NCBI GenBank assembly: GCA_021775875.1
Contig: JAJFHA010000022.1
Coordinates: forward strand, 1-64,000
Length of the DNA: 64,000 bases
Reading direction: 5' to 3'
DNA from: Hyphomicrobiales bacterium
GTDB taxonomy: Bacteria; Pseudomonadota; Alphaproteobacteria; Rhizobiales; NORP267
Of this stretch, positions 3,555-40,233 are shown piece by piece. How positions within the stretch are numbered: the stretch's first letter is position 1; each line of letters opens with the position of its first letter. The notes below the pieces were generated by a model, which had not been told where the DNA came from, made no database searches, and was given only the letters and a program-made list of their open reading frames with translations. Made by a program: the position numbers and the translations under genes.

Positions 3555-3827
3555 CTACGAAAATATCCGCATCCCCTGCTCCTTGATAACCTGCTTGGCC
3601 TTGCGGAATGTCTGCTCAACGCAATCCTCCGATGCCGGAAACAAATCGGCGCGGATCAGCGTATGGGTTTTCATTTCGCCGGAAATCTCCCGCGAAATCT
3701 CACCGTGAAGGCGATATTGATCGCCCTCTTTTTGCGGCGTCGCCACGATTCTATAGCCTTCATGGGTAATTTCAGCAGCCGGAGCCTGCGCCCCGCCAAT
3801 GCCAAACATGCGTTTCAAAAAGCTCAT
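3555..3827 (-). CDS. HlyU family protein
   Basis: A 90-residue protein starting MSFLKRMFG, with the compact HlyU-family pattern (HEGYRIVATPQKEGDQYRL, then TLIRADLFPASEDCVEQTF and a short amphipathic C-terminus). Proteins of this Pfam family include the Vibrio HlyU transcriptional activator, but the alphaproteobacterial members are short and functionally uncharacterised. This one shows no clear helix-turn-helix, so calling it a regulator would be inference. It leads a two-gene unit with the YjbQ gene. Confidence 0.78.
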   Translation of the reverse strand: MSFLKRMFGIGGAQAPAAEITHEGYRIVATPQKEGDQYRLHGEISREISGEMKTHTLIRADLFPASEDCVEQTFRKAKQVIKEQGMRIFS

Positions 3828-3921
3828 TTCGCCTCCAGAACAGTCTCGCTAAATTCCAGCATATCGCGATAAACCGAAAACCGCGACCGGAAAGGCCGGG
3901 CCAGTCCCTATTCAACAAAAC

Positions 3922-4056
3922 CGTCATTCCGGCGCAAGCCGGAATCCAGAGCAAAAGTGCCACACAAAATTCACTAAAGACTGGATCCCGGATCGCGCAG
4001 CGGATTTACACTTGGGCATACCATCCATCCGGGCCGCTGCTTGTCCGGGATGACGT
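3922..4056. repeat. Dispersed palindromic repeats (two families)
   Basis: A 28-bp palindrome (3922-3949, core TTCCGGCGCAAGCCGGAA) is followed by a longer unit (3981-4056). The longer unit begins CTGGATCCCGGATCGCGCAG and ends GCTTGTCCGGGATGACG. Copies of both occur about 34 kb away, at 38233-38834. The long unit here is in inverted orientation relative to its copy at 38701-38775. Both share end motifs (CGTCAT at one end, ATCCAG at the other). They look like REP-type or small non-autonomous elements in intergenic DNA. Confidence 0.8.
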
Positions 4057-4076
4057 GACAACTGGTCGGGCCAGCC

Positions 4077-4430
4077 TCAAAAATAATCCAAAGTTAAGTC
4101 TGTTTGATACCAACCTGATTTGCACAAACCAAGTTGAACAGCAGCCGCTTCGGATATATCTGCCGCAATCATTCGCGGCCCTCGATAGCCATTCAATGAA
4201 TTATTTGATGACTCCAATTTTAGTTCAGAATCTTGGTTTTCGATAAATTGCCACTCCGATATTTGACTGACAAATGCCGAAGTATCGAAATACTTTTCGA
4301 TGCCTCCTAAAAGAGGTTCGTTACCTTCAAATATTTTTACGAGCCGTAATTGCATTTCAAATATCTCTGATTTCTCCAGCATAAAAATAATTTGTAAAAA
4401 ATATAGAGTGAGAACCGATCTTGCTACCAA
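4077..4430 (-). CDS. Doubtful small hypothetical ORF
   Basis: An AT-rich open frame of up to 117 codons between the palindromic repeats and the rpoD tail remnant. The product contains a short hydrophobic start and then a mixed polar sequence with no motif I recognise. There is no convincing ribosome binding site for the first ATG or for the internal ATGs at about 4382. Its base composition differs by eye from the housekeeping genes around it. It could be a foreign gene or a chance frame in decayed DNA. Confidence 0.3.
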   Translation of the reverse strand: MVARSVLTLYFLQIIFMLEKSEIFEMQLRLVKIFEGNEPLLGGIEKYFDTSAFVSQISEWQFIENQDSELKLESSNNSLNGYRGPRMIAADISEAAAVQLGLCKSGWYQTDLTLDYF

Positions 4431-4777
4431 GTATAGACGAAAGCAATCACTGCTTTCGGACTCTGCCTTAAACCTCGGCTCCCCATATTATACTCGGCAC
4501 TATCCAGTGCCAAAGAGCTCTTAGAAACTAGCATTTCTAAAACCAAAGTCCGTCTATTTGGTATTCCAAATCTTTCTGACGGACCAACGTATTAATATGT
4601 TAACTCAATTCTACCCCTGTGGCTTAAGAACCGCCAATGCTAGTTAGCGAACAAGTTCGGGGAATTCAAAAATTTGGCCATATTTGCCTCCTTTTAGAAT
4701 CGCTTTTCAGCTTAGGAACAAAACAAGCACAAAAATCGTGTTTCCGCAAGTAAGGGACCGAATAATCCACACGCCAA
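4431..4777. other. Gene-free AT-rich stretch
   Basis: About 350 bases with stops in all frames. I see no coding pattern, tRNA or clear terminator. It separates the doubtful ORF from the rpoD 3' remnant and looks like decayed or foreign DNA. Confidence 0.5.
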
Positions 4778-28030: not shown

Positions 28031-28303
28031 TTAACCAACCCAGAACCGGCAATAGGCGTCGGCGCTGATATCGCCTTCTACAACCCGGCACGTGCCGCTA
28101 TCGGCCAGATACAGCCTGCAATTGTCGCAGCTCTTGTCACCATTCGGGCTTTCCTGATATTGGGCAGCCGATTTGGCGGTTTTGGCTTCCGCCCGGCGCA
28201 CCTGCGCCAATGTTCCGGCGACAAGGCCAATGCCCGCCAATCCAAGGAATCGTCGTCTGGAAACATCGCCAGCTAGGGTATTTGAAACTTTTGTTAGGGA
28301 CAT
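28031..28303 (-). CDS. High-potential iron-sulfur protein (HiPIP)
   Basis: A 90-residue exported protein. A twin-arginine signal (SRRRFLGLAGIGLVAGTLA) precedes a short mature domain with four cysteines in CDNCRLYLADSGTC and AYCRFWVG, the HiPIP cluster-binding pattern. HiPIPs carry one electron between periplasmic complexes, for example from cytochrome bc1 to a terminal oxidase or reaction centre. No photosynthesis genes are in the window, so a respiratory role is more likely. AGGAG lies upstream of the start. Confidence 0.9.
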   Translation of the reverse strand: MSLTKVSNTLAGDVSRRRFLGLAGIGLVAGTLAQVRRAEAKTAKSAAQYQESPNGDKSCDNCRLYLADSGTCRVVEGDISADAYCRFWVG

Positions 28304-28557
28304 ATCTTTCTCCTGATCGTGCCTGCCAAACAGACAATATTTGAATGATTCAAAGAAGTCATTTCACGAATAGGCGATAAAATCGTGATAGGGCACAGCA
28401 GGATCGAACAGATACGATACATTCGCCCCGGTTCAGGGTCATCTCTTGGGGAATCTAATTTTTTCATTGGACCCGCGAGCCCACACAAATGCCATGAATT
28501 TTGCGACATCGTCATGTCTGTAATGCGGACGGAGTGAACTTAGCAATCGGTGAGTTT

Positions 28558-29688
28558 CTAGCCCCAATTAAGTTTCTTCCGCAGATCGGAACTCACGCGG
28601 GATTTCGCCCATTCACGCCCCTCCAAGACGTCGAAGATATACAATAGGTCTTCTGTGAGGCTGATATATTCTGGGAGCTTTCCCTGAATTTCTTCTCCGC
28701 GATGCGCAAGCCGGTTTCTATCTGTTGTGAATTTGTCGGCCAATTTGAGCCAATTTTTTATGCTGTTCCAATGACCAATGTCCGAGTGGCCCTTATGAAT
28801 AAGCGGTATATAGTCCCTCAAGGTTTTGTATATTGGTGGGGATTGTGTCTGCATAAGCAGCCAAGCCGCACTCGGCGCTATTACCGAGATATGCTGCTTT
28901 AACCCTACCTCAAGAGCTGCGTATGCAATCATTAGGCCGCTTCGGTGGTTCTTATTCGCGATATTTTGCGCCTCACGCAATAGTTGGTGGGCTAATGGCT
29001 CATCCGCCGTTTGATCTTTCCACAATTCCGTGAATTCTCGGCAAACGTGTTCTGGCCACTTCAATCCCCGACTATCGCCCAGCACGACCTTGTTCATTTC
29101 TGATTTGGGACGTGGTGTATAGTGGTAGTATTCGTGTGTGGTTTTCCAATACAAAGATGAGGTGCTTGCATCGCCTGGATTTATCACCAATGTCTCATTC
29201 ATTGCTTCACGGACTATGTCGACCGGCCCAGGCACTTTTTGCTGCCAACGCAGCAATTGTAAAAACCGAATGAACTTTGTCTTGAGATATCGGTCAACAT
29301 CGCAACCAAATTCCTGAAGACCCTTGGGAATCATTTCCCAGGTTGGCATGTACCCTTCGGAAATTAGGCCAGTTGCATCAATTTTTTCCTCGCCGCCAAC
29401 ACAATACGGGAGTTCTTTTACCTCTCCAGACGCATTTAAATAACGCCTATCGATCAATGCTTCTACAAAATGGATATGATCAATAGGAACATCGCCAGAA
29501 GTTGTTACCCGGAATTCTAGATCACGGTGTCCGCTGCCCATTTTACCACTCTCTATGGTGGAGCGGATCACGATACGAAGGTCGCTATTTGGATCGGAAA
29601 ACGTAAGTCCCTCTGAACGAACTGGGTTGAAAACGTAGCCTCTCAGCTCCCCCTTCAACAAAAAATGCAGTTTACCGCTGGTACTCAT
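28558..29688 (-). CDS. Orphan protein with C-terminal HEPN-like motif
   Basis: A 376-residue protein I cannot assign to a family. The N-terminal 200 residues are mixed and beta-like. The C-terminal part is helical and holds R324-N-R-L-A-H329, an RxxxxH motif as in HEPN RNases, preceded by a helix (SGLMIAYAALEVGLKQHI) like the first helix of many HEPN domains. The layout (sensor-like N-terminus, HEPN C-terminus) resembles ApeA-like and abortive-infection proteins. The start at 29688 has AGGAG 8 bases upstream. It is alone between HiPIP and the sortase-target gene, in AT-richer DNA by eye. Confidence 0.7.
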   Translation of the reverse strand: MSTSGKLHFLLKGELRGYVFNPVRSEGLTFSDPNSDLRIVIRSTIESGKMGSGHRDLEFRVTTSGDVPIDHIHFVEALIDRRYLNASGEVKELPYCVGGEEKIDATGLISEGYMPTWEMIPKGLQEFGCDVDRYLKTKFIRFLQLLRWQQKVPGPVDIVREAMNETLVINPGDASTSSLYWKTTHEYYHYTPRPKSEMNKVVLGDSRGLKWPEHVCREFTELWKDQTADEPLAHQLLREAQNIANKNHRSGLMIAYAALEVGLKQHISVIAPSAAWLLMQTQSPPIYKTLRDYIPLIHKGHSDIGHWNSIKNWLKLADKFTTDRNRLAHRGEEIQGKLPEYISLTEDLLYIFDVLEGREWAKSRVSSDLRKKLNWG

Positions 29689-30076
29689 CTTTCTCACTCC
29701 TGAGACATGCCAAGGTCTAGTAGTATAACGGCGATCTTGTCGGCTTGAAATGGCTGACGAATGTCGCTTTGGGCTAGAAGCAGCCGAACCGATGCTTCAA
29801 AACCGTTTAGAGCGGATGCAATTGACCATCCGGTTTATTAGCGACATTTACCACGCCTCCGGTCCGGCAAACAAATTGCGCAACACGCTGGTGTCCAGTC
29901 GCGAACAGCAACACGGCTATAGCGGCATCGACTATTTAGCACGCAACGATGTTGCCTCTGCCTTAATTTGGTCAAGAAATCGCACCGGGATTTCCCCATT
30001 CGCGGCTCACCCGTGCCGTATTGCCCCCTTCCTATTCACTGACACAACAGAAATGCCAGCCAGATGAATTGGGACC
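29689..30076. other. Intergenic region with a doubtful ORF
   Basis: About 390 bases between the HEPN-motif gene and the sortase target. An open frame of 105 codons (29750-30067, plus) exists, but the product shows no recognisable fold, no export signal and no clear ribosome binding site. I treat it as probably non-coding. Promoters for both flanking divergent genes must be here. Confidence 0.4.
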
Positions 30077-32443
30077 ATGACCATGCCGGATGCGCCAGAA
30101 AACCTGATGGAAATTTTCACCGCCCTGAAACCTGAAAGTCTGCGTCCGCCTCGTCCATTGATGCTGGTATGGCTGGGTCAGGCATTTCTGATGTTTATCA
30201 CCCTGCTATTCGGCCTGTCCTCGTTACAGGCAGCACCCGCCCCCGCACCTGATGCCAATCCCTTTGTCCGGTTTGTCCAACCCGCAGAGATGACAAGCGG
30301 TGGGTTATTGCTTCAAGCCCAAGAAGAAGGGCAATTTCTGGAAGCACCTTTACTCGCCACCGACGTGGATATTTCCATTACGGGTCCGATCCTGCGCGCC
30401 ACCATAACCCAGCGATTTGAAAACCCGGCCGAAGCCTGGGTTGAAGGCATTTATGTGTTTCCCCTGCCCGAAGGTGCCGCTGTTGATACCTTGCGCATCC
30501 GGATCGGTGACCGGTTGATCGAAGGACTTATCAAGGAGCGTGAAGAAGCCCGCCAGCTTTACGAACAAGCTAGAGATGAAGGTCGCAAGGCCAGCCTTGT
30601 GGAGCAGGAACGCGCAAACATTTTTACCAATTCGGTTGCCAATATCGGGCCCGGCGAAACGGTCGTTATCCAGATCGAATATCAGGAAACCATCCAGCAA
30701 TCGAACGGCATATTCTCAATGCGCTTTCCTATGGTCGTGGCCCCGCGCTACAACCCGGATGCGCAGGTCCACACCGTCGAATTTGATGACGGCTCCGGTT
30801 GGGGACGGGTCAATGACCCGGTTCCTGATCGCGACCGCATCACGTCGCCAGTACAACACCCGGATCTCGGAGACCTGAACCCTGTTACAATGACCGTAGC
30901 CCTGAAGCTCGGATTCGATCTGGGCGAAGTCACAAGCGCATATCACGAGATCGAATTGCGCCGCACCGGCAACGACACCGCGATCCTGACCTTCAAGGAA
31001 GGTGAAACTCCGGCCAACCGCGACTTTGAATTGAGCTGGACAGCCAAGGATGCGGAAGCGCCGACGGCTGCCCTGTTTCGCGAAACCATAAATGGCGATG
31101 ATTATGCTTTGCTTTTTCTGACCCCACCGGTATCAGCCCCCGACCCGGACCAGGAACGCCTGCCGCGCGAAGTTATTTTTGTCATCGACAATTCCGGCTC
31201 AATGGGCGGCACCTCGATTGTCCAGGCGCGGGAAAGTCTGGTATTTGCCCTGTCGCGTCTGCAACCGGGTGACCAGTTCAACGTGATCCGGTTCGACAAT
31301 ACCATGGATACGATTTTCCCAACCCCGGTCCCGGCCACCGAACAAAATATTGCTTTTGCCAGTGGCTTTGTCGCGCAACTCGAAGCCGAGGGTGGCACCG
31401 AAATGTTACCCGCTCTCAAAGCAGCGCTCATAGATCGCGACCCCGGAAATACAAATATTCTGCGCCAAGTCATTTTCCTGACCGACGGCGCTATCGGCAA
31501 CGAAGACCAGATGTTTACTGAGATTTCACGCAACCGGGGCCGCTCACGAATTTTTACAGTTGGCATCGGTTCCGCACCAAACTCATTCTTCATGACCCGC
31601 GCCGCCGAAATCGGCCGTGGCACATTCACCCATATCGGAAGTGTCAGCGAAGTTCGCGAACGCATGACCGCGCTTTTCACCAAGCTGGAAAACCCGGTTC
31701 TGACCGATCTGGAAGTTTCCTGGAATGGCGGCGATATCAGGGATATTTCCCCCTCCCCCTTGCCCGATCTGTATCGCGGTGAGCCGATTGTCCTGACCGC
31801 CCGCGCCAGCATTATGCCTGATACCCTGCGGATCACCGGCAAGCTCGACGGTGAACCCTGGACAGTCCAGATCGAAACTGAAAATGCCCATGAAGGCAAC
31901 GGTCTTGGCAAGCTTTGGGCCCGGCGGCGGATCGCCTCTCTCGAAGTTGATCGCAATCGCGGCAACAATTCTGAAGCGGTCGATGAAAACATCACAGCCA
32001 TCGCCCTCGAACATCATATCGTTTCCAGGCTAACCAGCCTTGTTGCTATTGATGTGACGCCCACGCGCCCGGAGACTGAATCGGTCGAACGTCGGGAGGT
32101 TCCGTTGAACTTGCCTGCGGGTTGGGAATTCGACAAAGTATTTGGAGATGATGTTCCGGCCCCGAGCCCGAACCGCCCTCGCCGTGCCAATTTTGCTCCT
32201 CAAAGCGAAAGCGTGGCGCAGATGGTCGGCATGTTGGCGACAGCTCCGACACAGGTAGACAGCCAATCGCGCGCTGCAACCCGCAGCCTGTTGTTGCCGC
32301 AAACAGCAACTATTTCAGAGCGGCAAATCATGGCCGGGATCCTGTTGCTGATATTCGCCATTACCTGCCTGATTATACGCAGGTTCTGGAGCCGTGCCAT
32401 TCGTACCTACTCCCTGCCGCGCCCTACCAACAGGGTCCGATAG
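30077..32443 (+). CDS. Marine proteobacterial sortase target protein (VIT + VWA)
   Basis: A 788-residue surface protein. A hydrophobic segment (about residues 30-55) acts as the export signal. The VIT domain follows (about 85-215, ATITQRFENPAEAWVEGIYV, FPLPEGAAVD). The VWA domain starts near 365 with an intact MIDAS motif D371-N-S-G-S375 and LTDGAIGNED. The C-terminus is a sorting signal: LPQTA at 740-744, then polar residues, a hydrophobic helix and an Arg-rich tail. It is the family normally paired with a class GN sortase, which is the next gene, 2 bases downstream. The ligand of the VWA domain is unknown. Confidence 0.92.
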   Translation: MTMPDAPENLMEIFTALKPESLRPPRPLMLVWLGQAFLMFITLLFGLSSLQAAPAPAPDANPFVRFVQPAEMTSGGLLLQAQEEGQFLEAPLLATDVDISITGPILRATITQRFENPAEAWVEGIYVFPLPEGAAVDTLRIRIGDRLIEGLIKEREEARQLYEQARDEGRKASLVEQERANIFTNSVANIGPGETVVIQIEYQETIQQSNGIFSMRFPMVVAPRYNPDAQVHTVEFDDGSGWGRVNDPVPDRDRITSPVQHPDLGDLNPVTMTVALKLGFDLGEVTSAYHEIELRRTGNDTAILTFKEGETPANRDFELSWTAKDAEAPTAALFRETINGDDYALLFLTPPVSAPDPDQERLPREVIFVIDNSGSMGGTSIVQARESLVFALSRLQPGDQFNVIRFDNTMDTIFPTPVPATEQNIAFASGFVAQLEAEGGTEMLPALKAALIDRDPGNTNILRQVIFLTDGAIGNEDQMFTEISRNRGRSRIFTVGIGSAPNSFFMTRAAEIGRGTFTHIGSVSEVRERMTALFTKLENPVLTDLEVSWNGGDIRDISPSPLPDLYRGEPIVLTARASIMPDTLRITGKLDGEPWTVQIETENAHEGNGLGKLWARRRIASLEVDRNRGNNSEAVDENITAIALEHHIVSRLTSLVAIDVTPTRPETESVERREVPLNLPAGWEFDKVFGDDVPAPSPNRPRRANFAPQSESVAQMVGMLATAPTQVDSQSRAATRSLLLPQTATISERQIMAGILLLIFAITCLIIRRFWSRAIRTYSLPRPTNRVR

Positions 32444-32445
32444 CA

Positions 32446-33120
32446 TTGCCCAAACTAACCAACCGCAGCGCCAAAACCAGACGCGGTGGGTGGACCCGGA
32501 AGTTGGCCGGTTTCATCCCCGCCCTGACCGGATGGGATTGGTTGATCGGTGGGATTGTCGGCGTCGCGCTGATTTTGGCAACGATCCTGATCGGCCAAGG
32601 CCTGTATATCAAGGCAAAGGCAATGCTGGCGCAGGTTTTATTGAACCAGGCCTGGGCCGAAACCATGGAAACCAGCGAACCGACCCGGCCCTGGCCCTGG
32701 ATGGACACCTGGCCTGTTGCTCGCATCGAAGTACCACGCCTTGAGCGCGCGGCAATCGCCCTAACTGGAGCCAGTGGGCAAGCGCTCGCCTTTGCCCCGG
32801 TACATCTTCGTCAAAGCGCATTGCCAGGTGCTCAGGGAACAAGCGTTTTCGCCGCCCATCGCGATACCCATTTTACATTTATGGCGCAATTGAAAGAGGG
32901 TGACCGGATCAACATGACCAATAGCTCAGGGGAAATTTTTGAATATGAAATTCAATCTTTCCGGATCGCTCCGTGGAACAATTCCGGCATCGACCCGAAT
33001 AGCCTCGAACACAAGCTCGCGCTAGTAACGTGTTGGCCACTCGATGGCACGTTTGCTGGTCCAATGCGCTTCATAGCGGAAGCAAACCTAGTGCGCTCAG
33101 CTCCGGTCCCGACCTATTGA
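32446..33120 (+). CDS. Class GN sortase
   Basis: A 224-residue membrane-anchored transpeptidase. One N-terminal helix (WLIGGIVGVALILATILIG) is followed by the sortase barrel. H138 is in FAAHRDTHFTF, C196 is in LALVTCWPLDG and R208 is in GPMRFIAE, giving the full catalytic triad. It should cleave the LPQTA signal of the preceding gene and attach the product to an envelope acceptor that is not known for Gram-negatives. The start is a TTG at 32446, 2 bases after the target stop, implying translational coupling. Its end overlaps the convergent PH-domain gene. Confidence 0.92.
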   Translation: MPKLTNRSAKTRRGGWTRKLAGFIPALTGWDWLIGGIVGVALILATILIGQGLYIKAKAMLAQVLLNQAWAETMETSEPTRPWPWMDTWPVARIEVPRLERAAIALTGASGQALAFAPVHLRQSALPGAQGTSVFAAHRDTHFTFMAQLKEGDRINMTNSSGEIFEYEIQSFRIAPWNNSGIDPNSLEHKLALVTCWPLDGTFAGPMRFIAEANLVRSAPVPTY

Positions 33121-37952: not shown

Positions 37953-38232
37953 AATCGACCTCTCTTGGCTGGTGAAAAATCAGTCCCCGTCAAAACTCCA
38001 CTTCACTGATGATACGCAAAATCCTCACCGTTCCGGCATAACCCGGCGGCGTTGTAAATCTGGCAAAAAAATGAAAATCAGCGGCGCGGTGCGCCCGCTT
38101 GAAATCTGTGCCGGTAATCCGACCTGTGAGTGACGTGCCTGAAACCATGCATCCTCTCTCGTTATATTAAAGATAAGCACGGATGAGACGGAGGGCAAGG
38201 GTTGGGGGAGGTATTTGCAACCTCACCTATTT
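37953..38232. other. Gene-poor stretch before the repeat-bracketed nuclease
   Basis: About 280 bases, leading into the first palindromic repeat at 38233. No gene or RNA structure stands out. Confidence 0.4.
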
Positions 38233-38260
38233 CGTCATTCCGGCGAAAGCCGGAATCCAG
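38233..38260. repeat. 28-bp palindromic repeat upstream of the GIY-YIG gene
   Basis: The sequence runs from CGTCATTCCGG to CCGGAATCCAG, with TTCCGGC and GCCGGAA as arms. It is a copy of the family at 3922 and 38647. It ends 12 bases before the GIY-YIG start. Confidence 0.85.
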
Positions 38261-38272
38261 TACGATGGCCCA

Positions 38273-38563
38273 ATGGAAAAACGCCCTTTCGTCTACATCC
38301 TCGCCAGCCAACGAAACGGCACGCTTTATACAGGTGTGACAAGCGACCTGCCAAAACGGATCGGCCAGCACAAACAGGGTGAAATTTCTGGCTTCACCAA
38401 AAAGCACAATGTCCATTTGCTTGTTTGGTTCGAATCTCACGAGACGATGGATGCAGCGATAACCCGCGAAAAGCAGATCAAGGATTGGCAACGCAGTTGG
38501 AAACTGGATTTGATCGAAAAGACCAATCCCGACTGGCACGACCTCTATGAAGACATTTGCTAA
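38273..38563 (+). CDS. GIY-YIG nuclease family protein
   Basis: A 96-residue protein with a single GIY-YIG domain. VYILASQRNGTLYTGVTSDL holds the two Tyr motifs (YIL and YTG), KRIGQHKQGEISGF carries the Arg/His region, and the conserved Glu is in TREKQIKDWQR. The full length equals the small stand-alone YhbQ/UPF0213-like nucleases. It is bracketed at 12 and 10 bases by palindromic repeats sharing end motifs, so it may be mobilised with them or may act on them. A longer frame upstream would start within the repeat and is rejected. Confidence 0.9.
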   Translation: MEKRPFVYILASQRNGTLYTGVTSDLPKRIGQHKQGEISGFTKKHNVHLLVWFESHETMDAAITREKQIKDWQRSWKLDLIEKTNPDWHDLYEDIC

Positions 38564-38844: not shown

Positions 38845-40233
38845 CTAAACATGGCATTCTTTGTACCGCTGGATCAAATTATGACTTGCAATTCTTTCGG
38901 TCCCTTCCTTTGAAATTGGAAGGTCTACTGCCATTAACAAAAAACAGAGCGCTTCGACAGCGTAGGTTGCTTTCGCAAATTTCTGAAACTCGGCATCGCC
39001 TTCGGGTTCGTAATGACCATGCGCGGAACGATCACGTATGCTGAACGCTAGCATTAAATATTTGACAAAATTATCGTCCAAATTGATCGATGGAAACTTC
39101 ACTATTACCAATTGAACCAACCGCGAAAGCAAGGCATTTCTAGTTTCTGTCTTGATTTGTTTAACTGTTCCAGAAATTCTGCTTTTTAAATCGTGATAAC
39201 CCAATTTCTCCGCACAAGACGCTGCAGTTAAAGCAATTTTCTCTACATCAATATCAGCAACAGTATTTTGCCGACCTGTCAATGGTATCTCCTCAAACCA
39301 CCTACACCCCTTGATCAGACGATCTACCGACAGTATTCGGTTAAGCTTCAGGCATCCCATCATCAAAGCATAAGCATTCCACCAATCAGGTATTCTCCTC
39401 ATCCAAGATTCAGCGCATTCAGTGAAAGCGTCTGTTTCAATACCGCCGCGTGCAAAAATTGGGGTGCCCCCAATCCAAAGATTTTCATCAAATGCCGGCG
39501 ATTTTTCTTGAAGGGAAATCGCATGATATTCATGGATGTAGCTTTGCTCATCTGCAATTTTTTCAAGTTCAGAAAAAGTTTTGTCAGATATTATAAGATT
39601 GGAGTGAGCAAAATGGGTTCCTCGGGTAAAAGAAAGGAAGGAAGTAATTGAATGCAAATATCTAGAATAATTATTGATATTACATTCTTGTAAAAATAAA
39701 ATTTGAAACGTCGGCCAAATTTCATGCTTTTTTACTAATCCGCCAAATCGGTGATACGCATATCTGATTTCAATTTCAACATCTTCCGTCTTTATGTTTG
39801 TGATATATAAAATCTCATGATCAGGGAGTTGACGAAAATCAAAATCATGTATTTCGTCACTTGAGAATAAATCATCGCAGTCTGGAACATCAAATCTTAA
39901 AAATTTTATATGATTTGAATAATCCCATTTATCAGGACCTACCAATGCGAAATTGGTATTTATATCTTGAAAATGAACATTTCTGGGACGGTCCCTTGAA
40001 CCACCATAAAATGCTCCTGGACCACCGTAATTTCCGAACATCGACAAATAATCATTGTTTTCTAAATACAAATAAATTGGTTCAGTTTCATCAATATAAA
40101 AGGGTTTTTCGTAACAAAATAATCGGACTTTTATACTGTTTTTATCGTAGCAAAACATCCCCGTATAATTTTTACCCGTATGACATTCATAGCAATGAAT
40201 ACTATCATTTCTTTTAATTATATCTTCTAACAA
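38845..40233 (-). CDS. ApeA-like HEPN-domain protein (putative defence)
   Basis: A 462-residue protein, AT-rich by eye, especially its 5' half. The C-terminal helical domain carries R400-D-R-S-A-H405 (RxxxxH of HEPN RNases), with a second possible pair R402/H407. The N-terminal 180 residues are beta-rich with many aromatic residues (EPIYLYLENNDYLSMFGNYG). The organisation resembles ApeA anti-phage proteins (N-terminal sensor plus Apea-like HEPN), in which the HEPN domain degrades RNA on infection. The start is TTG at 40233 with GGGAG upstream. It lies 30 bases after the uvrB stop, same strand. Assignment is by motif and layout, not by alignment. Confidence 0.65.
   Translation of the reverse strand: MLEDIIKRNDSIHCYECHTGKNYTGMFCYDKNSIKVRLFCYEKPFYIDETEPIYLYLENNDYLSMFGNYGGPGAFYGGSRDRPRNVHFQDINTNFALVGPDKWDYSNHIKFLRFDVPDCDDLFSSDEIHDFDFRQLPDHEILYITNIKTEDVEIEIRYAYHRFGGLVKKHEIWPTFQILFLQECNINNYSRYLHSITSFLSFTRGTHFAHSNLIISDKTFSELEKIADEQSYIHEYHAISLQEKSPAFDENLWIGGTPIFARGGIETDAFTECAESWMRRIPDWWNAYALMMGCLKLNRILSVDRLIKGCRWFEEIPLTGRQNTVADIDVEKIALTAASCAEKLGYHDLKSRISGTVKQIKTETRNALLSRLVQLVIVKFPSINLDDNFVKYLMLAFSIRDRSAHGHYEPEGDAEFQKFAKATYAVEALCFLLMAVDLPISKEGTERIASHNLIQRYKECHV

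Follow-up and report, generated by a model that had tools for sequence, protein, structure and literature searches.

The gene and its surroundings

The gene lies at 28558-29688 of the window, by which we mean the whole 64,000-nucleotide stretch of DNA that was analyzed. The open reading frame (ORF) that a sequence-only reading had placed there is real: it is encoded on the minus strand, begins with an ATG preceded by AGGAG, and specifies a protein of 376 amino acids in which R324 and H329 stand at the positions that reading gave them. Its account of the neighborhood also holds: a HiPIP-like gene lies on one side, and a VIT/VWA protein and then a sortase lie on the other. The features are as follows.

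28031-28303: HiPIP-like gene (PF01355, 21.1 bits, just below the cut-off of 22)
28558-29688, minus strand: gene, 376 codons plus stop, ATG start (ORF and translation; relatives at 25-46% identity)
28597-29016, minus strand: predicted C-terminal HEPN domain, residues 225-364 (VIA-align rows; PF18735 matches of 8 of 11 members)
28702-28719, minus strand: R324-N325-x3-H329, predicted catalytic HEPN motif (Rx4-6H)
28897-28911, minus strand: E260-x3-K264, second HEPN motif (Ex3[KR])
29119-29688, minus strand: N-terminal alpha/beta domain (residues 1 to ∼190), presumably the half that senses or inhibits; placed by the secondary structure predicted in the nine-sequence model
29697-29701, minus strand: ribosome-binding site AGGAG, 8 nt 5' of the ATG (read from the sequence)
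30077-32443: VIT/VWA protein
32446-33120: sortase, after the VIT/VWA gene

The genome carries one copy of the gene. Intergenic space is present on either side of it; terminators and promoters around the gene scored near the shuffle mean, no convincing terminal repeats flank it, and a repeat scan of 28250-29850 found no tandem motif. Its base composition, described earlier as different, does differ, but modestly: GC is 0.471, compared to 0.525 for the window, and 6.3% of 1,258 equal-length window slices have GC at or below that of the gene. Two congeners differ here. In one (G001), the space between HiPIP and VIT is filled by an FAD-binding monooxygenase, and similarity to the window at the DNA level stops at 28264; in the other (G002), a LysE translocator lies beside the VIT gene, followed by the contig end, and similarity resumes at 29773.

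The window protein had no match in Pfam, NCBIfam, or PADLOC at E ≤ 10. PHROGs returned a single match (E 0.43) to a PHROG with function unassigned; a PDB sequence search returned only ribosomal S19 (E 0.12-0.17), and a PDB search with the family profile returned no match. We found no description of the family in the literature, among the matches listed. This absence from libraries is the sole support for a spurious ORF or a decayed gene, which we dismiss because 11 relatives have open frames of 338-426 amino acids and invariant motif residues.

The window contains a second HEPN-like candidate at 38845-40233 (minus strand), thought earlier not to be homologous to the gene studied here, and BLASTP (best E 1.4) agrees. 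It is AT-rich (GC 0.37) and encodes 462 amino acids, including R-D-R-S-A-H, from an uncertain TTG start; its product has one NCBIfam match far below the cut-off and none in the other libraries, and was not found in 149 related genomes. Nearby, 38183-38563 (plus strand) encodes a GIY-YIG domain protein (PF01541, E 3.4e-18), around which a VIPAKAGIQ stretch occurs in ORFs of both strands; it has the look of a dispersed repeat.

HEPN signature and predicted fold

The HEPN active site consists of Rx4-6H, in which the R is followed by a polar residue, and many families also have Ex3[KR] (PMC3710099, section 6). We found all three features in each of the 12 family members, that is, in the window protein and its 11 relatives: R324-x4-H329, N325 directly behind the arginine, and E260-x3-K264. 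Other residues invariant in all 12 include W148, W181, H234, P284, P285, H298, D353, and W360. When counted over 11 members, invariant positions are concentrated in the C-terminal part (18 of 151, versus 4 of 225 for residues 1-225).

Eight of 11 members matched PF18735 (HEPN_RiboL-PSP) at E ≤ 1 (best 2.5e-6), with alignments spanning only ∼40-65 residues around the Rx4H helix. None reached the gathering cut-off of 28.4 bits, the best being P0002 with 28.0 bits; the window protein and the Roseovarius and Bradyrhizobium members gave no PF18735 match. Five of 11 members, the window protein not among them, matched PF18737 at E ≤ 1, all below the cut-off. Searches with 11 members hit four PADLOC families, each through a single member and with CARF-HEPN scoring best (E 0.002), and three NCBIfam families, again each through a single member, with Cas13e scoring best (E 0.0068). 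No profile convincingly matched the N-terminal half.

An AlphaFold2 model built from nine sequences has a mean pLDDT of 78 and a pTM of 0.74; a one-sequence model was useless (pLDDT 35) and was set aside. Helices cover residues 213-372 of the nine-sequence model, and the predicted C-terminal part is an all-helical, four-helix bundle. Foldseek found nothing at E ≤ 0.001 for this model; its best PDB row was Csm6, a HEPN protein (E 0.26), and its best viral row had an E of 0.033 and a probability of 0.08. We compared the model by VIA-align with 996 of Foldseek's top chains. Ranks 1-15 were all HEPN or HEPN-like and aligned over 102-132 residues, with Z scores from 11.3 to 5.8, to be read in light of the fact that helical bundles may reach Z near 13 through common arrangement alone. 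The top rows were 2hsb (Z 11.3), 3o10 (Z 9.9), and 1ufb (Z 9.8); HEPN-MNT proteins, Csm6, AbiV, LsoA, sacsin, and YggD are also among the 15. All cover model residues from 216-230 to 352-368, except 8pe3, whose range starts at 146. After rank 15 come a designed bundle (Z 5.5) and then receptors at Z 5.0 and below. We take 1ufb, 2jpu, 2q00, and 7bxo to be HEPN or HEPN-like; PMC3710099 lists 3c8g, Csm6, AbiV, and LsoA under HEPN. The predicted fold thus contains the HEPN-like bundle on which the sequence-only reading depended.

Residues 1-193 matched TBP and phosphoglucomutase chains in VIA-align at Z 3.2-3.9, a range the tool rates unreliable, and the TBP-like rows were tied with the unrelated folds 3cph, 3c6k, and 6ui5.

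Because the three active-site features are invariant in all 12 members, because HEPN chains occupy VIA-align ranks 1-15, and because 8 of 11 members match PF18735, we predict that the product is, very likely, a HEPN nuclease.

Relatives, their distribution, and their loci

The 11 relatives, counted one per genome or plasmid, are 25-46% identical to the window protein and come from scattered Alphaproteobacteria and one Acinetobacter. Profile searches led to relatives in Bradyrhizobium (G844) and in genomes G931 and G1391. A scan of 84,980 species genomes, which used two degenerate peptide patterns and an alignment of the C-terminal parts, yielded eight relatives from 103 pattern stretches, a non-exhaustive count: Roseovarius, Paracoccus, a Rhodobacterales MAG, Oceaniovalibus, Bradyrhizobium (the same gene as in G844), Acinetobacter venetianus, Sagittula, and Bosea. 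An earlier scan of species genomes with a single sequence gave 24 pattern stretches and no relatives. In a tblastn search of plasmids, one relative matched over most of its length, a protein of Methylobacterium oryzae plasmid unnamed4 (E 8e-16, 24% over 96%); weak matches came from Novosphingobium, Klebsiella, and Paenisporosarcina plasmids. Six scans of viral contigs yielded no confirmed relatives, though 1 to 74 pattern stretches matched in each, and tblastn against phage records found nothing at E ≤ 1.

The gene is rare. There was no match in 149 other related genomes or in 384 other genomes of the class; there was one match at E ≤ 0.001 among 397 genomes of the phylum, one among 294 genomes of the Bradyrhizobium family, and one among 344 genomes of the family of Paracoccus, in draws that omit the own genome or draw center and may overlap. 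Five fragmentary matches from the phylum search (E 0.01-0.05) were dropped before members were counted.

When eight genomes or records were searched again, each had one intact copy. Two rows of this search count stops, which we place at the match ends because the frames there are open; two Sagittula rows are adjoining pieces of a single gene. Besides its intact copy, Oceaniovalibus has a broken one, which is interrupted by stops and lies close to the end of a contig (G1162:C27:237-1236). The Sagittula member is shorter than the others (338 amino acids), with a gap in its N-terminal half. In a tree, which is uncertain at the two long branches of Sagittula and Acinetobacter, the window protein forms a group with Sagittula and four Rhodobacterales proteins (99/98), and the Bradyrhizobium protein falls outside it, even though the source organism belongs to the same order as Bradyrhizobium.

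An Enterococcus plasmid protein (P0003) has C-terminal similarity only and was left uncounted. Among the matches listed in the plasmid search, it matched the window protein at E 7e-3 to 0.1; a pairwise comparison with P0002 gave E 8e-10. It is perhaps a distant HEPN cousin. A protein of this type, annotated as hypothetical, is encoded at 3599-4603 of an Enterococcus faecium plasmid locus (L004) and has the E-x3-K and RN-x3-H layout in mid-protein; in this record, the one viewed, the gene adjoins a recombinase and a Phd/YoeB-type toxin-antitoxin pair. Stretches similar to the Enterococcus protein occur on 182 Enterococcus plasmid records.

We read the neighborhoods of all 12 copies, with a Pfam scan of chosen neighbors. 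Five have tRNA, recombinase, phage, plasmid, or transposon genes in their vicinity: the Methylobacterium plasmid locus has a resolvase, VapC, and MobF; Bradyrhizobium has tRNA-Ser, another PF18735-like protein, and a serine recombinase; Oceaniovalibus has tRNA-Gln ∼440 bases upstream and phage terminase and tail genes downstream; Roseovarius has tRNA-Met 3.2 kb upstream and a Panacea gene; and G1391 has a SIS-domain gene, read as the end of glmS, followed by TnsA and IstB. Six stand alone between ordinary chromosomal genes, with no evident mobile or defense gene adjoining. These are the window copy and those of Paracoccus (between altronate dehydratase and a pfkB kinase), the Rhodobacterales MAG (chaperonin as an ordinary neighbor), Acinetobacter (valS on one side and DUF559 on the other; the latter also resembles an REase family, below that family's cut-off), G931 (ABC-2 transporter as an ordinary neighbor), and Sagittula (between rplW and rplB of the S10 ribosomal operon). 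The Bosea locus was placed in neither class. The relatives are therefore not consistently found in metabolic operons, a pattern that would have counted against the earlier interpretation.

The PF18735-like protein of the Bradyrhizobium locus (L013, 7522-8532), two genes upstream of the relative, scores 26.6 bits (cut-off 28.4) and has an LprI-like part. The rplW-rplB junction occupied in Sagittula (L022, 9153-10639) looks like a cargo slot in the family of Sagittula (loci L029-L070). In 29 other genomes (the best 30 of the 57 that have rplB, with Sagittula left out), the rplW-rplB gap is 80-283 bp in 10 and 0.6-5.5 kb in 12, the latter with ORFs that are unlike one another by eye; rplW was not found upstream in 7, of which 5 have 15 kb of sequence and 2 are cut short by the contig end. 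None of the papers listed on the S10 operon concerned this, judged by title.

An all-against-all comparison of 1,809 neighboring ORFs from 11 loci (all but G1391, within 8 kb at most, with short flanks for G931) revealed no neighbor family linking more than two loci. Those found in two loci are Panacea and its neighbor (Roseovarius and Bradyrhizobium), resolvases (Bradyrhizobium and Methylobacterium), and ordinary chromosomal genes. A trypsin-like neighbor common to Roseovarius and Bradyrhizobium was considered and rejected: the Roseovarius neighbor matches PF13365, and the Bradyrhizobium neighbor has no match. The same conserved chromosomal block lies a few kilobases from the Roseovarius and Rhodobacterales MAG copies, and these two insertions need not be fully independent. 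When flanking DNA of 11 loci (600 bases upstream and 400 downstream) was compared by blastn, only matches of 11-27 nt were found (best E 0.001).

In all 12 loci, the GC content of the gene is below that of its flanks (up to 8 kb each, some shorter). Because the gene was not found in the 149 related and 384 class genomes, because one congener has another gene in the gap and the other a different gene beside VIT, and because its GC is low in 12 of 12 loci, it apparently behaves as acquired cargo, moved horizontally between unrelated bacteria. With the motifs, the model, and the neighborhoods taken together, the earlier view of a HEPN nuclease carried as cargo is well supported.

Possible modes of action

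We think it quite likely that the gene has a role in defense or as a toxin, and probable that it has moved horizontally and acts as a single gene in abortive infection, its product being a HEPN RNase under the control of its own N-terminal domain. By analogy to the superfamily motif, the C-terminal bundle would be a metal-independent endoribonuclease with E260, K264, R324, N325, and H329 in its active site, which, as in other HEPN enzymes, is probably composed across a homodimer. The N-terminal alpha/beta domain may silence the HEPN part and sense an infection cue; on release, RNA cleavage would arrest growth and spare the population. We infer gating by the N-terminal domain because the loci compared were found to share neither an antitoxin gene nor a flanking RNA. 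An N-terminal sensor or inhibitor joined to a HEPN toxin has been proposed for other HEPN Abi proteins (PMC3710099, section 12), AbiJ-type proteins among them; however, none of the 11 members searched against Pfam at E ≤ 1 matched the AbiJ N-terminal domain. According to PMC9519451, HEPN-like domains occur in 6 of 21 validated E. coli defense systems, and in the four cases in which key residues of a predicted domain were mutated, these proved essential.

Other known HEPN proteins resemble the family in part. HEPN_RiboL-PSP is listed for PD-T4-2, PD-T4-5, PD-T7-3, and ApeA in a table of PMC10952713; the motif helix matches this family in most members, but all score below its cut-off over a short stretch, with the N-terminal half outside any convincing profile. 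Apea proteins have a similar layout, a mostly-beta N-terminal domain fused to HEPN, according to PMC3710099. HEPN-MNT (HepT/MntA) toxins match in fold (8xeh and 5yep, Z 8.0-8.1), but the present proteins have an extra N-terminal domain of ∼190 residues and no neighbor gene common to their loci.

A second arrangement, in which the protein acts as a toxin with a partner antitoxin in the manner of RnlA/LsoA (RNase LS), its HEPN RNase being freed from the labile antitoxin on infection and its N-terminal domain being TBP-like, seems improbable to us. Pfam includes RnlA models, and a search of it with 11 members returned no RnlA-family match at E ≤ 1; no candidate antitoxin gene is common to the neighbors of 11 loci. 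The resemblance consists of a HEPN RNase domain behind a beta-rich N-terminal part: LsoA is among the VIA-align matches (5hy3, Z 5.8 over 102 residues), and residues 1-193 give the TBP and phosphoglucomutase rows described above, although those scores are in the unreliable range and tied with unrelated folds. Some RNase LS family HEPN domains are fused to a TBP-like N-terminal domain, according to PMC3710099, and the two extra domains of RnlA are beta-sheets with two helices, according to PMC7180214.

It would also surprise us if the protein had no part in defense and instead served some niche function in the host, as a HEPN ribonuclease or as a regulator that binds RNA. Half of the copies (6 of 12) do stand alone among ordinary chromosomal genes, and MtlR and some other HEPN families are thought to be non-catalytic RNA binders, as PMC3710099 states; nevertheless, the catalytic motifs are strictly kept, the distribution is patchy and horizontal by its look, Oceaniovalibus has a second, broken copy, and metabolic neighbors do not recur.

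Control by a small RNA encoded alongside, as in an AbiF-like type III system, is still harder to credit. The RiboL-PSP HEPN family is tabulated as a distant relative of AbiF and AbiD (PMC3710099), Clostridioides difficile AbiF is neutralized by an associated RNA (PMC12373285), and the intergenic space on both sides of the gene leaves room for a small RNA; however, the flanks of 11 loci have nothing longer in common than the 11-27 nt matches, and the repeat scan around the gene lacks a tandem motif.

For the favored reading, an abortive-infection RNase gated by its N-terminal domain, we can suggest a more specific form, which is speculative and rather unlikely in its details: a TBP-like, nucleic-acid-binding N-terminal fold might recognize an intermediate of phage replication or transcription, e.g., an RNA-DNA hybrid, and directly unlock the HEPN RNase of the same chain, without antitoxin, RNA, or second messenger. 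Such a protein would be a hitherto undescribed immune sensor and effector in one.

Single-gene HEPN Abi-type proteins are already known; none of the libraries searched recognizes the present family as a whole at its curated cut-offs. It is a coherent addition to the candidate single-gene HEPN defense proteins, missed at the curated cut-offs of Pfam and NCBIfam and not convincingly matched by PADLOC as searched here, and it offers named, predicted catalytic residues together with 12 natural variants. If the N-terminal domain is a sensor, the family would make trigger recognition testable in a single polypeptide.
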